Positions 25,041 through 46,479 of a stretch of 47,996 nucleotides of DNA are shown one piece after another. The notes under the pieces were generated by a model that saw only the letters and a program-made list of their open reading frames with translations, was not told where the DNA came from and did no database searches. This stretch comes from Eubacterium sp. (GTDB lineage: Bacteria; Bacillota; Clostridia; Lachnospirales; Lachnospiraceae), in the NCBI GenBank assembly GCA_016292095.1, contig JAEFAB010000006.1, positions 1 to 47,996 on the forward strand, in the 5' to 3' direction. The position numbers were made by a program, and so were the translations under genes. Every line of letters starts with the position of its first letter. Positions within the stretch are counted from its first letter, which is position 1.

Positions 25041-26150
25041 ATGAGAAAGATATACTTAGATAATCTGAAATGGATTACGGTTGTTTTAGTGGTGCTGTAT
25101 CATGTCATTTATATGTATAATGGAATTGAAGTCTATGGAATCGCCGGACCGTTCTATCCGGTGCAGTATCAGGATTTATTTCAGTACATTGTGTATCCAT
25201 GGTTTATGCTGTTGTTGTTTGTGGTTTCCGGGATGAGTGCAAGATTTTATTTGAACAGTCATTCCCACCGGGAATTTATCAGAACGAGAACAAGGAGATA
25301 TCTGGTTCCATCTACGTTGGGTCTCTTGACGTTCGGCTGGGTTCTTGGATACTACAATATGCAGTTTTCTGATGCTTTCAGCACCATGGGGAATGTTCCA
25401 AAGCCGGTAATGTATTTAATTATGGCAGTTAGTGGAACAGGACATCTTTGGTACATTCAGGTGTTATGGATTTTGTCTATTGTTCTTGTTTTATTCCGAA
25501 TCATAGAAAAAGAACGAATCTATGAGAAATGCTCAAAAACTCCGGTGTGGGTTATGATTGCATTTGTGCTACCAATCTGGGGAGCGGCTCAGATTTTAAA
25601 TACGCCAATCATTTCCGTATATCGTTTCGGCATCTATGGAACAGGCTTTATGTTGGGGTATCTGGTATTTTCTCATGATGAAGTAATGGAGAGGCTTTCT
25701 AAATGGTGGTTGCCGCTTACGATTGCCGGAATCCTGTGTTGCATCGGATTTTGTATTGTATTCTGGAGAAAACCGTATGCGGAGCATGTCGTGTTAGACA
25801 CGTTGCTTTGTAATATTTATGCCTGGATTGGAACGATTGCGATTTTGGCCTTTATGAAAAAATGGGGCGATTTTAAAAATCCTTTCACAGTATTTATGAC
25901 CAGGGAATCCTGGGGATTATATTTATTCCATTATTTGCCACTGGCGATGTGCACCTACTATCTGGAAAAATATTTTCCGGGAACACCGGCGATTCTGTGT
26001 TATGTGGCAGTTACAATCTCTGCATTTGGCGGAGGCATCCTATTATATGAAATAATCAGTCGCATTCCTGTCTTAAGATGGTTGTTATGCGGAATTGGAG
26101 GGAAAAAACATGTTAGCGGAAAACTTAGTAGAACTCAGAAAGTTACATAA
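25041..26150 (+). CDS. Acyltransferase-3 family integral membrane protein
   Basis: The start is at 25041 after AAAGGTGGTAATAAT; an in-frame ATG at 24975 lacks a site. The protein is 369 aa. It begins RKIYLDNLKWITVVLVVLYHV, the typical acyltransferase-3/OafA start with the conserved His, and has about ten hydrophobic segments with Arg-rich loops (SHREFIRTRTRRYL). Members acetylate or otherwise acylate sugars or lipids of the envelope. The last 41 bp overlap the next regulator gene. Confidence 0.85.
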   Translation: MRKIYLDNLKWITVVLVVLYHVIYMYNGIEVYGIAGPFYPVQYQDLFQYIVYPWFMLLLFVVSGMSARFYLNSHSHREFIRTRTRRYLVPSTLGLLTFGWVLGYYNMQFSDAFSTMGNVPKPVMYLIMAVSGTGHLWYIQVLWILSIVLVLFRIIEKERIYEKCSKTPVWVMIAFVLPIWGAAQILNTPIISVYRFGIYGTGFMLGYLVFSHDEVMERLSKWWLPLTIAGILCCIGFCIVFWRKPYAEHVVLDTLLCNIYAWIGTIAILAFMKKWGDFKNPFTVFMTRESWGLYLFHYLPLAMCTYYLEKYFPGTPAILCYVAVTISAFGGGILLYEIISRIPVLRWLLCGIGGKKHVSGKLSRTQKVT

Positions 26151-26520
26151 AATGTCGCAGGAAGAATTGGCAGAAAAGATTGGAGTATCCCGTCAGACAC
26201 TGTCAAAATACGAGACAGGAGAGTCGTTACCGGATATAGAAAAGTGCAGAGACCTTGCAGATGCCTTTGGCGTTTCTATTGACGATCTTGTCAATTATAG
26301 CCGGGACGACAACATGGGACTGGGGGTTCCACCAAAAGGAAAGCATATTTTCGGAATGGTAAAAGTAGGGGATAAAGGTCAGATTGTGATTCCCTCGAAA
26401 GCAAGAAAAATATTTAACATCAATCCCGGTGATAATTTAATTCTTTTAGGAGATGAAGAAGCCGGTATTGCCATAATTAAAGAAGAAGGTATTTTGGAAA
26501 TGCTCCAGAAACAAAAATAA
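26110..26520 (+). CDS. HTH (XRE) - SpoVT/AbrB fusion regulator
   Basis: The start is taken at 26110 (GGAGGGAAAAAAC before it), inside the end of the acyltransferase gene. The protein is 136 aa. It has an N-terminal XRE HTH (LRKLHKMSQEELAEKIGVSRQTLSKYETGESLP), then a linker and a C-terminal AbrB-type swapped hairpin domain (VKVGDKGQIVIPSKARKIFNINPGDNLILLGDEE). This HTH-AbrB pairing is recurrent in Clostridia; both parts can bind DNA, and AbrB domains dimerise. It may control the overlapping acyltransferase gene or the array region that follows (inference). Confidence 0.9.
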   Translation: MLAENLVELRKLHKMSQEELAEKIGVSRQTLSKYETGESLPDIEKCRDLADAFGVSIDDLVNYSRDDNMGLGVPPKGKHIFGMVKVGDKGQIVIPSKARKIFNINPGDNLILLGDEEAGIAIIKEEGILEMLQKQK

Positions 26521-26525
26521 AGAAA

Positions 26526-26885
26526 AGTTCCTTAATGTTGTGAAAATATTGATTTGTAAGGTACACTTCCCAAGGTAAAAAATTGGGAGTGTACCTTATT
26601 TTTGTGGAAAAATTGAGACGTAGGGTACAGTGTGAAAGATGAAAAAAATGAGTTGTACCGTGATATCGAGAAAAAGAGAGCGCATATGGTACGTTGAAAA
26701 TCAAATCAAATTTTTGCTGTACCCTAAAAAAGTAGAATAATCAAAAGTTAAGGTTCATACATACAAAAAGAGAACTTGTGGTGTACCGTAAAAAAATTAA
26801 AAAAGCCAAATGCAAGGTAGGCAGGCAAAAAATCAAAAGTTCGAGTGTACCTTATTGTTTCAGAAAAGTTGTGTCGCAAGGTAAA
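26526..26885. repeat. Alternating GGTACA/TGTACC array, exact 64-bp period
   Basis: The 487-bp gap between genes holds a 9-bp motif, TAAGGTACA, in alternating orientation. Reverse copies start at 26557, 26621, 26685, 26749, 26813 and 26877 (matches 9, 8, 7, 8, 6 and 7 of 9). Forward copies TGTACCTTA start at 26526, 26590, 26654, 26718, 26782 and 26846 (7, 9, 7, 8, 8 and 9 of 9). Both series step by exactly 64 bp; neighbouring motifs are 30 and 34 bp apart, about three helical turns. The sequences between motifs are A-rich and not conserved. No ORF of note runs through it. A protein-binding array or a series of RNA hairpins are both possible. Confidence 0.85.
26557..26603 (+). terminator. Terminator-like hairpin at the first full array unit
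   Basis: Arm 26557-26573 pairs with 26583-26598 over 16 bp (one bulged T), 9-nt loop, followed by TTTTT at 26599-26603. It probably terminates the acyltransferase/HTH-AbrB transcript. Its outer 9 bp are the array motif, so the terminator is built from array elements. Confidence 0.8.
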
Positions 26886-26924
26886 TCTCAGAAAAAATGT
26901 GAAGAGTCTGTGAATTTATCCTGA

Positions 26925-26957
26925 TTTAAGTTTCATTTAAGGTTGCTTTTTTATACT
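26925..26957 (+). promoter_or_regulatory. Operon promoter with OmpR-type direct repeat
   Basis: TTTAAG (26925-26930) and TTTAAG (26936-26941) are 11 bp apart, one helical turn, and cover the -35 region. TATACT at 26952-26957 is the -10. The layout fits activation by an OmpR-family regulator; the one encoded at 33095-33769 is the natural candidate. Confidence 0.65.
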
Positions 26958-27007
26958 TACCACAGAAACGAAAACAAACAGGTTTTTGGGAGAAAGGAAG
27001 TGTTACT

Positions 27008-28978
27008 ATGAAACGTAGAGGATTAAGAAAATTTGCAATCACATTAACATTGGCAATGATGGTAACAACAATCAATGGATGTGGAAAAGCAGATTCAAGC
27101 AGTAAAAAAGAAAGTAATACACAGGATGAAGATGCAATTTATGGAGAGGTTACGGAAATTAATGACGGTTCTATAAAAATTAAAGTGGGAACTATGAAAC
27201 AAATGGAACGGCCGGAACGAAACAACTCAGATACGAAAGATACAAATGATGAGCAAAAGCAGGATTCCAAAGAACACAGTGGAATGCCTTCTCTAATCGA
27301 TTTGACCGGTGAAGAAAAAGAAATCAGTATTTCTGATAATACCACGTTTAAGAAAGAACAAATGATGGGTGGAGGTAATATGATGGGAACTCCTCCTAAT
27401 ATGCCGGATAGCAACAGTGAGAACGGAGAGCAGCAGACTCCACCACAGATGCCAGATAGCAACAGAGAGAACGGAGAACAACAGACACTACCGGATATGC
27501 CGGAGAAGTTTGAGAAGGAGGCGGAAGATATTTCTGCATCAGATATTTCCGTTGGAGATATAGTAAAGATTACATTGGATGACGATGGAAATGCATCAGA
27601 AATTACCGTTGTTTTCTCCGGAAGCGGAATGAGTTTTCCGGGAGGACAGCAAGGTGGACAGCAGGCAGGCGGTGTAGATAGCTACACCGCTGTAAATGAA
27701 TATACATCCGATCAGAGTCTCGCAGACGAAAGCGTAAAATCTACAGGGACAGATGAAAATGCAATTCTTGTCAGTGACGGTAATGTTGCAATGGATGAAT
27801 TGACAATTACCAGAAAATCCTCTGATAGTACCGGCGGTGACAATTCCAGTTTTTACGGAGTTGGCGCTGCGGTACTGACAACGGGAGGAAATTCTTATTT
27901 GAAGAATAGTAAGATTGATACAGATGCAGCAGGAGGCGCAGGGATTTTTGCTTATAACGAAGGAACTGTTTATGCGGCTGATACAACGATTACAACCAAA
28001 CAGGATACTTCCGGAGGAATTCATGTGGCAGGCGGAGGAAAACTGTATGCATGGGATTTGGATGTGGAAACAAACGGTCAGTCCTCAGCAGCAATCCGAA
28101 GTGACAGAGGTGGCGGAACTATGGTTGTGGATGGAGGAACTTATACATCCAACGGAAAAGGTTCTCCGGCAATTTACAGTACAGCAGATATTACGGTAAA
28201 TGATGCAGAGTTGACAGCAACCGGTTCGGAAGCAATTTGTATTGAAGGATTCAATTCCATTAGACTTTTTGATACCAATCTGACAGGAAATATGAAGGAT
28301 GACAGCCAGAATGACTGTACCTGGAATGTAATTTTATATCAAAGTATGTCCGGTGATTCTGAAGTGGGAAACAGCACCTTTGAAATGAACGGAGGAACAT
28401 TAACAGCGAAAAACGGCGGAATGTTTTATACCACCAATACAGAATCTACTTTTGTTTTAAAAGATGTGGATATTACTTACGCAAAAGAAAATGATTTCTT
28501 TTTGAAGTGTACCGGAAACAGTAATCAGAGAGGCTGGGGTACCGCAGGACAAAACGGAGCAGATTGTTCCTTTACGGCAATCTCTCAGAAGATGGAAGGC
28601 GATGTAATTTGGGACAGCATTAGTCAGCTTGATTTTTATATGACAAAGAACAGTACTTTAACAGGTGCTTTTGTACAGGATGAAAGCAATGCCGGAAACG
28701 GTGGTGACGGTGCTGCAAATCTTTATATTGAAAAAGGATCCAAATGGGTGGTGACAGATGACAGTACTGTAACAAATCTTTACAATGCAGGCACTATTGT
28801 GGATGCTAAAGGAAAGACTGTCACAATCAAGGGAACAGACGGAACAGTGCATGTGAAAGGTGAGAGTGACATTACGGTTACCGTGAATTCTTACAGCACA
28901 AAAGCGGATGTATCCAAAGCAACAAAAGCAACATCCTGGTCTGATTATAAAGTAGAAAAGCCGGAAGAAGTAGAATAA
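27008..28978 (+). CDS. Lipoprotein with right-handed beta-helix-like region
   Basis: The protein is 656 aa. The signal RKFAITLTLAMMVTTINGC has a lipobox (INGC). After a Ser/Lys-rich spacer comes a region GEVTEINDGSIKIKVGTM (a DUF5666-like small barrel pattern), then a Met/Pro/Asn-rich segment with two copies of MPDSN..ENGEQQT. From about residue 230 there are many Gly/Thr repeats (GGAAVLTTGGNSYLKNSKI, GGTMVVDGGTYTSNG, GGTLTAKNGGMFY), a parallel beta-helix or carbohydrate-binding pattern. It is exported and membrane-anchored. As first gene of an operon with adaptor, ABC exporter and two-component system, it may be a surface component of that export system. Confidence 0.8.
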   Translation: MKRRGLRKFAITLTLAMMVTTINGCGKADSSSKKESNTQDEDAIYGEVTEINDGSIKIKVGTMKQMERPERNNSDTKDTNDEQKQDSKEHSGMPSLIDLTGEEKEISISDNTTFKKEQMMGGGNMMGTPPNMPDSNSENGEQQTPPQMPDSNRENGEQQTLPDMPEKFEKEAEDISASDISVGDIVKITLDDDGNASEITVVFSGSGMSFPGGQQGGQQAGGVDSYTAVNEYTSDQSLADESVKSTGTDENAILVSDGNVAMDELTITRKSSDSTGGDNSSFYGVGAAVLTTGGNSYLKNSKIDTDAAGGAGIFAYNEGTVYAADTTITTKQDTSGGIHVAGGGKLYAWDLDVETNGQSSAAIRSDRGGGTMVVDGGTYTSNGKGSPAIYSTADITVNDAELTATGSEAICIEGFNSIRLFDTNLTGNMKDDSQNDCTWNVILYQSMSGDSEVGNSTFEMNGGTLTAKNGGMFYTTNTESTFVLKDVDITYAKENDFFLKCTGNSNQRGWGTAGQNGADCSFTAISQKMEGDVIWDSISQLDFYMTKNSTLTGAFVQDESNAGNGGDGAANLYIEKGSKWVVTDDSTVTNLYNAGTIVDAKGKTVTIKGTDGTVHVKGESDITVTVNSYSTKADVSKATKATSWSDYKVEKPEEVE

Positions 28979-46371: not shown

Positions 46372-46479
46372 GCGTGCCTAACGAACGTTCAGCCGCCAGC
46401 GTGTCTAACGAACGTTCAGCCACCAACGTGCCTAACGAACGTTCAGCCACCAACGTGCCTAACGAACGTTCAGCCACCC
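46372..46479. repeat. Four tandem 27-bp repeats
   Basis: Units at 46372-46398, 46399-46425, 46426-46452 and 46453-46479. The core GTGCCTAACGAACGTTCAGC is almost invariant (one C/T change in unit 2), and the ends vary (GCC/ACC, GCG/ACG). Each unit contains the palindrome GAACGTTC. It is GC-richer than the flanks, suggesting an interspersed repeat family. It can be read as 9-codon repeats on either strand, but no ribosome binding site or start supports translation. Confidence 0.92.

Follow-up and report, generated by a model that had tools for sequence, protein, structure and literature searches.

Most known extragenic arrays of alternating orientation consist of hairpin repeats associated with a transposase. 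As described in the portions of the sources cited here, BIMEs are tandem extragenic arrays of alternating orientation that bind IHF, gyrase, and Pol I (PMC2817692), REPs are reported in convergent or codirectional 3′ positions (PMC3733652), and REPs and BIMEs alike are defined by an imperfect palindrome of 20–40 bp with a GTAG/CGTC-type head (PMC3733652, PMC2817692). The REPINs of Pseudomonas fluorescens SBW25 are, in the cited portion of PMC3116915, inverted doublets that occur in regularly spaced intergenic arrays.

Here, we describe arrays of GTACC-containing sites from a stretch of DNA of 47,996 nucleotides (in its entirety, the window) of a Lachnospiraceae Eubacterium sp. and from related genomes. 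Within the extent of these partial source descriptions, the GTACC arrays resemble BIMEs in being tandem, extragenic, and alternating in orientation, REPs in lying 3′ of genes in convergent or codirectional settings, and REPINs in being inverted, regularly spaced, and dispersed between genes. Unlike BIMEs, they are built from 9-bp non-hairpin half-sites with an A-tract at the dyad rather than from REP palindromes, their phase is fixed at 64–65 bp with diverging spacers, and no RAYT link was seen; their motif, YGTACCNTR, has no head of the GTAG/CGTC type that the cited portions assign to BIMEs and REPs. REPINs possess arms with compensatory changes and a RAYT association, neither of which was found for the GTACC arrays. 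By hairpin, head, and transposase, the arrays thus fall outside the REP/BIME and REPIN classes; they are BIME-like in layout and placement. No such arrays are described in the REP, BIME, and REPIN literature outside subscription journals and preprints, as far as the consulted portions of it extend.

The window array and its phase

Twelve 9-bp sites occupy positions 26526–26885 of the window, an array to which no strand is assigned, in strict 64-bp phase and alternating orientation. Sites resembling TGTACCTTA begin at 26526+64n (R sites, minus strand) and sites resembling TAAGGTACA at 26557+64n (F sites, plus strand), with n running from 0 to 5. In order, and with the letters of the 9-mer that each one matches, the sites are R1 (AGTTCCTTA, 26526–26534, 7/9), F1 (TAAGGTACA, 26557–26565, 9/9), R2 (TGTACCTTA, 26590–26598, 9/9), F2 (TAGGGTACA, 26621–26629, 8/9), R3 (TGTACCGTG, 26654–26662, 7/9), F3 (TATGGTACG, 26685–26693, 7/9), R4 (TGTACCCTA, 26718–26726, 8/9), F4 (TAAGGTTCA, 26749–26757, 8/9), R5 (TGTACCGTA, 26782–26790, 8/9), F5 (CAAGGTAGG, 26813–26821, 6/9), R6 (TGTACCTTA, 26846–26854, 9/9), and F6 (CAAGGTAAA, 26877–26885, 7/9); three of the twelve are exact copies. 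An earlier, sequence-only reading of this DNA had reported the twelve sites and their phase, both of which we recover; its spacing of 30 and 34 bp holds for the GTAC centers (34 and 30 bp alternately), the site starts being 31 and 33 bp apart alternately, and its alternation of orientation stands, with the words forward and reverse exchanged.

Over the twelve sites, the phase score is 93 of 108 letters; 3,000 dinucleotide shuffles of the region averaged 40 and peaked at 52. Autocorrelation at lag 64, which the sequence-only reading had suggested comparing with shuffled sequence, is 0.544 against 0.291 ± 0.024 (maximum 0.378) in 2,000 mononucleotide shuffles, and lags 128 and 192 give the next highest values. 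A chain score computed with a weight matrix that was made by hand from the array family itself, and is hence not blind, reaches 79.5; the entire window, dinucleotide-shuffled 150 times, yields 12.2 at most. The single motif is common, with 140 window matches at up to two mismatches against 122 ± 10 expected, and it is therefore the phase, rather than the motif, that is improbable. Tandem Repeats Finder did not detect the window array. The array and its phase are certainly real.

The interiors between sites had been described as unconserved and free, which does not hold at the dyad: five of the six N22 spacers of the window array carry an A run of at least four there. The tract of unit 1, read from the sequence with the family profile, lies at 26543–26546 (plus strand), and further dyad A-tracts at 26608–26612, 26671–26675, 26799–26804, and 26864–26867; unit 4 is without one.

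A family of arrays: distribution, anatomy, and placement

The window array is a member of a genome-wide family, of which 46 loci from four genomes within a single Lachnospiraceae genus gave 45 arrays; by hand count, the family is present at 22 loci besides the window. Arrays were seen in four of the 23 genomes of the genus, the longest having 26 sites: 14 in the genome of the window (G000), 15 in G004, 10 in G009, and 7 in G007. The G000 count becomes 13 if the arrays of L035 and L039 belong to a single array. These two (L035 1–332 and L039 5068–5204) sit at contig ends (C8 and C25), have near-identical units, and are probably the two ends of an array at which the assembly broke. The pattern GGTACA-N10–35-TGTACC is found 29 times in G000, clustered in arrays, versus 4 times for the reversed pattern. 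With N24/25 as the spacer, counts of 29, 27, 19, and 22 were obtained for G000, G004, G007, and G009, with reversed-pattern controls at 0 in all four; the other 240 of 244 genomes hold 0–3 copies each, and controls likewise 0–3. A unit model built solely from the sequences of 52 units (alignment A1, which leaves out three of 55 non-redundant units) recovers 45, 60, 13, and 43 units in the same four genomes and gives 0 matches in the remaining 56 of 60 genomes, 19 of these being congeners; the counts are lower bounds, with 82 candidates scored per genome under strict filters. A search of related genomes for the unit pattern, another suggestion of the sequence-only reading, thus brings up arrays in these four.

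In the GTDB species collection, a scan that may omit the window's own genome returned 17 stretches. Eleven belong to three MAGs, Eubacterium sp. RUI373 and RUI397 and Lachnospiraceae RUG11188, that we presume from their names to be of rumen origin; four lie in RGIG8162 and represent a different repeat, and two are Bacteroidetes sequences with short repeats of another kind that stand outside the family counts. No DNA similar to the array was present in phage and plasmid records and no similar array in viral collections, in which one viral contig matched with a repeat of another kind. The Clostridiales MAG RGIG8162 (G244) holds 16 copies of GGTACA-N9–11-TGTACC versus 0 in controls (L110–L122), and G274 holds 11 copies versus 0 in controls (L125–L130). 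As in the window family, these repeats present TGTACC and GGTACA in both orientations, recur with a 62–64-bp period (62 bp in G274), and are dispersed, and G244 possesses a pair of GTAC centers 34–35 bp apart; unlike it, the G244 elements, mostly of two units, add spacings of 13 and 16 bp, and the centers in G274 are 45 and 17 bp apart. We do not claim homology; both repeats were found by searching for this very pattern, and the likeness may therefore be selected.

Across the family, the unit reads TGTACCNTR-N22-YANGGTACA followed by N24–25, such that sites succeed one another as R-N22-F-N24/25-R with a period of mostly 64–65 bp. In 61 non-redundant units, the motif YGTACCNTR and its reverse complement carry 1–2 bits at most core letters, and position 7 is nearly free. 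The GTAC centers are 34 and 30–31 bp apart, roughly three helical turns each; centers 34 bp apart within a repeat of 64–65 bp place a half-site every three turns or so, alternately inverted. The motif is similarly conserved in both orientations, which speaks for double-stranded DNA. In N22, the three central columns fall inside an A or T run of at least four in 75–84% of 55 units, and the N24 spacers bear two weaker tracts (up to 44%) that are symmetric about the N24 center. These A-tracts are not at whole-helical-turn spacing and hence do not imply simple phased curvature.

We mapped gene context using heuristic ORF calls. Thirteen of the 45 arrays lie between convergent genes, 23 between codirectional genes, and a single one, near a contig end, between divergent genes, with eight at contig edges; 79 other gaps of 100–1,500 bp in the same loci comprise 7 convergent, 50 codirectional, and 22 divergent ones. 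For the 37 arrays with two neighbors, a test that leaves out the eight arrays with one, the Fisher p value is ~0.001 for the divergent deficit and for the convergent excess alike. Collapsing orthologs to 21 loci weakens both (p = 0.04 for divergent, p = 0.009 for convergent), with hand-assigned counts set against an uncollapsed baseline. The arrays are shown by these data to reside at gene 3′ ends and to be nearly absent from divergent gaps. Terminator-like hairpins of −11 kcal/mol or below, counted within 110 bp of the stop codon, were seen at 34 of the 53 3′ ends that face an array and at 36 of the 81 others (p = 0.03); with a less stringent cut-off the contrast is lost (p = 0.20 at −5, p = 0.07 at −7), and several of the array-side hairpins overlap the array. 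The 30 neighbor genes that were scanned are ordinary and varied; array neighbors include genes for Glx-tRNA synthetase, a methionine-synthase-like protein, IF-2/RbfA, Lgt, HSP20/MFS, GH76, alpha-amylase, and transporters. The locus labels proS, rsmF, potD, gltD, and ABC are our own and are to be taken as presumptive.

Turnover, constraint, and signs of movement

Among 38 stretches that carry relatives of the flanking genes, 36 are without a chain score of at least 13, a count that includes several stretches ending at contig edges and two doubtful orthologs (cobW); the gltD locus has an array in G007 and a weak chain at a contig end in G000. When filled and empty loci were compared, both flanks aligned in 24 of 35 cases, with fewer than 100 bp (−5 to 99) between the aligned flanks in 17 of the 24 and 210 bp to 1.8 kb in the other 7. 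At the G007 locus orthologous to the window array, both neighbors, the regulator and the operon start, are present and the array is absent. No target-site duplication was recognized by eye in eight junctions. At the MFS locus of G009, the tail of the last unit is kept behind a T-run with a 5-bp overlap, which reads as a deletion scar rather than a target duplication. Elsewhere in the window, positions 46373–46478 hold a 27-bp tandem repeat where G007 instead has a GTACC array.

In the ortholog of the window array at L076, 6 of 73 core letters, 103 of 251 spacer letters, and 17 of 37 other site letters are changed, and the L043/L080 pair is nearly identical in this respect (6/72, 101/254, and 17/36); in these two most diverged pairs, the six core letters per site are thus 8% changed versus 40–41% for the spacers. 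L070/L085 (core 5/36, spacer 40/113) and L076/L089 (1/66, 28/229) point in the same direction. Core and spacer divergence are about equal in six of ten ortholog pairs, including L084/L046 in which the core changed more (4/36 versus 7/114), and alignment and site choice in this comparison somewhat favor cores. The two most diverged pairs support the proposal of the sequence-only reading that site and phase are under selection and, with cores kept as spacers diverge, its preference for protein binding over simple duplication.

The L036/L075 and L077/L090 arrays are more alike than their surroundings: the arrays (L036 4782–5142 with L075 3080–3440, and L077 with L090) are ~95–98% identical and the surroundings 86–91%, which may reflect recent exchange between species. 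A special type of spacer, ACATACAAAAAGAGAA, at 26758–26781 of the window (plus strand), is common to arrays at other, non-orthologous loci, and further spacers are common to the infB and GH76 arrays. Six of 88 array ends, from three loci (L046/L084/L087, L074, and L077/L090), have the sequence (A/C)ACATA(A/C)TGTATGAA immediately next to the outermost site, and a fourth locus, L045 (5283), joins them if its last weak site is discounted. This end sequence is never found at both ends of one array, and 1.05 Mb of sequence contains 64 matches to it at up to three mismatches, some of them these same places counted twice. Shared spacers together with the recurring end sequence indicate movement of units from locus to locus. 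The end sequence is possibly the end of a mobile unit, and a defined end may exist for some arrays.

Competing explanations and a tentative model

Two candidates were rejected or nearly so: a chance array, shuffles never reaching the phase score, and RNA hairpins, the arms being without covariation. The latter had been an option of the sequence-only reading and would make the arrays an RNA element, with repeated hairpins processed or sensed in transcripts. Such an element would fit the strong fold of the window array (z −5.2 relative to shuffles) and arms that pair far better than slid partners, but both follow from the inversion of the sites, the latter being true of any inverted sites. It would also fit the first window pair, F1–R2 (26557–26598), which adds an inner palindrome and a T-run to form a terminator-like hairpin of −20.9 kcal/mol (26557–26605, plus strand) 3′ of the XRE-AbrB gene, and which, by its sequence, looks like the intrinsic terminator of that gene. 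Against it, R and F arms, across either loop, pair only as well as permuted partners do (p 0.14–0.46), spacer self-pairing is at or below the permuted level, covariation in both pairings is at the level of shuffled controls, and RNAalifold returned 0 pairs and no consensus structure for 52 units; an Rfam search of window positions 25800–27600 gave two sub-threshold matches and none above the gathering threshold. Only at position 7 does arm pairing slightly exceed the permuted value (0.51 versus 0.43, or 0.53 versus 0.47 with G-U pairs), which could stem from shared ancestry of the units. Lacking arm covariation, the sites look like double-stranded, protein-type sites rather than RNA hairpins, and an RNA element is highly improbable. 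Nearly as improbable is that the XRE-AbrB protein (HTH_3 and MazE_antitoxin domains, as tested in the window) or the downstream response regulator binds the array as its operator, or that XRE-AbrB binds the whole family. The XRE-AbrB gene does flank the window array, and adjoins an acyltransferase-like gene in the window, L006, L007, L009, and L011; within the 23 genomes of the genus, it is full-length only in the four array-bearing ones (best E 2e-86 to 9e-73, with matches of 4e-13 at best in the other 19), and G244 and G274, which have GTACC repeats of their own, carry it too. Shared descent of four related species can, however, explain the co-occurrence inside the genus, full-length relatives (46–73% identity) are present in G024, G026, G028, and G032, genomes that yielded no array, and among genomes around G244, scanned for the G244-type rather than the window-type pattern, 9 of 12 have the gene (55–75%) and 7 of these 9 show no excess of the pattern. 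Because G007 lacks the window array despite retaining both neighbors, an operator of a neighbor, as the sequence-only reading had also proposed, is unlikely, and the 22 other family loci with their varied genes weaken that idea further. Outside the array, a TTTAAG direct repeat with 11-bp spacing (26925–26941) precedes an operon of a lipoprotein-like gene, HlyD, ABC, RR, and HK. It is conserved in all four species, that is, also in G004, G009, and the array-less G007, has what we take to be an OmpR/PhoB-type look, and is, judged by sequence, the better operator candidate.

Partition or chromosome-domain sites, that is, centromere-like arrays to which a system of the ParB, MatP, or SMC type binds, would agree with several dispersed multi-site arrays per genome and with the cooperative geometry. 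This option, too, had been raised by the sequence-only reading and is weakened by position: 13 of 22 array-flanking gene segments could be mapped in the single-contig congener G019 (~2.9 Mb), in which no array was found and whose positions are therefore a proxy, at 24, 86, 192, 909, 1330, 2125, 2135, 2231, 2239, 2295, 2625, 2800, and 2817 kb, the 2239-kb segment being a weak 28% match and four further weak matches having been dropped as paralogs. None lies within ~320 kb of dnaA at 516 kb, and 11 of the 13 are on one side of the dnaA axis. Array presence at a locus, moreover, is not conserved, and we regard partition sites as quite unlikely. A more serious contender, possible though on balance doubtful, is a selfish extragenic repeat, REPIN- or MITE-like, that is spread by a transposase or by recombination in trans and has no host function, the 3′ gaps simply being where arrays are harmless. 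Restriction to 4 of 23 congeners, presence that varies between species, unit types common to unrelated loci, arrays of as many as 26 sites, and a placement like that of REPs in the cited portion of PMC3733652 all suit it, and the end sequence common to four loci favors it. Yet 82 of 88 array ends are without that sequence, the junctions offered no recognizable target duplication, hairpin covariation is missing, unlike in REPINs, and cores are kept while spacers turn over in diverged pairs. In a search of 23 genomes for the Y1 (RAYT) transposase, G004 had two, G007 gave a sub-threshold fragment, and G000 (91% complete) and G009 had none; the transposase is also present in G005, G013, G014, and G022, all of which are without arrays.

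Taken together, the explanation that we prefer, tentatively and at slightly short of an even chance, is that these are lineage-restricted, cooperative DNA-binding arrays for a putative host protein, one that may act as a local nucleoid organizer or insulator. From their sequence, the arrays are likely protein-binding arrays; a local architectural or insulator role is suggested by placement. As a dimer centered on the A-tract, the putative protein would occupy each R-N22-F dyad, and successive units would be bound cooperatively on one DNA face. The filament or wrapped complex so formed might, less securely, organize the nucleoid locally or serve as an insulator that would limit read-through or the spread of supercoils between transcription units, a job similar to that proposed for E. 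coli BIMEs. The array would be dispensable at any one locus. Counting against this preferred reading are the absence of arrays at many orthologous loci (36 of the 38 stretches) and the six of ten ortholog pairs in which core and spacer changed about equally, together with the slight excess of pairing at position 7, the weakening of the context test on ortholog collapse, the loss of the terminator contrast at less stringent cut-offs, and the recurring end sequence.

A bolder version, which we consider rather unlikely, posits a dedicated architectural system in which a protein lattice would form on phase-locked inverted GTACC half-sites with A-tracts, the arrays would act as insulators behind terminators, and the G244 and G274 repeats would be further branches across Clostridia. 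In the family described here, the layout and placement of known extragenic arrays recur with strictly helically phased sites that look double-stranded and of protein type; should a host protein read them, the arrays would furnish a clean, countable model of insulation between bacterial transcription units.
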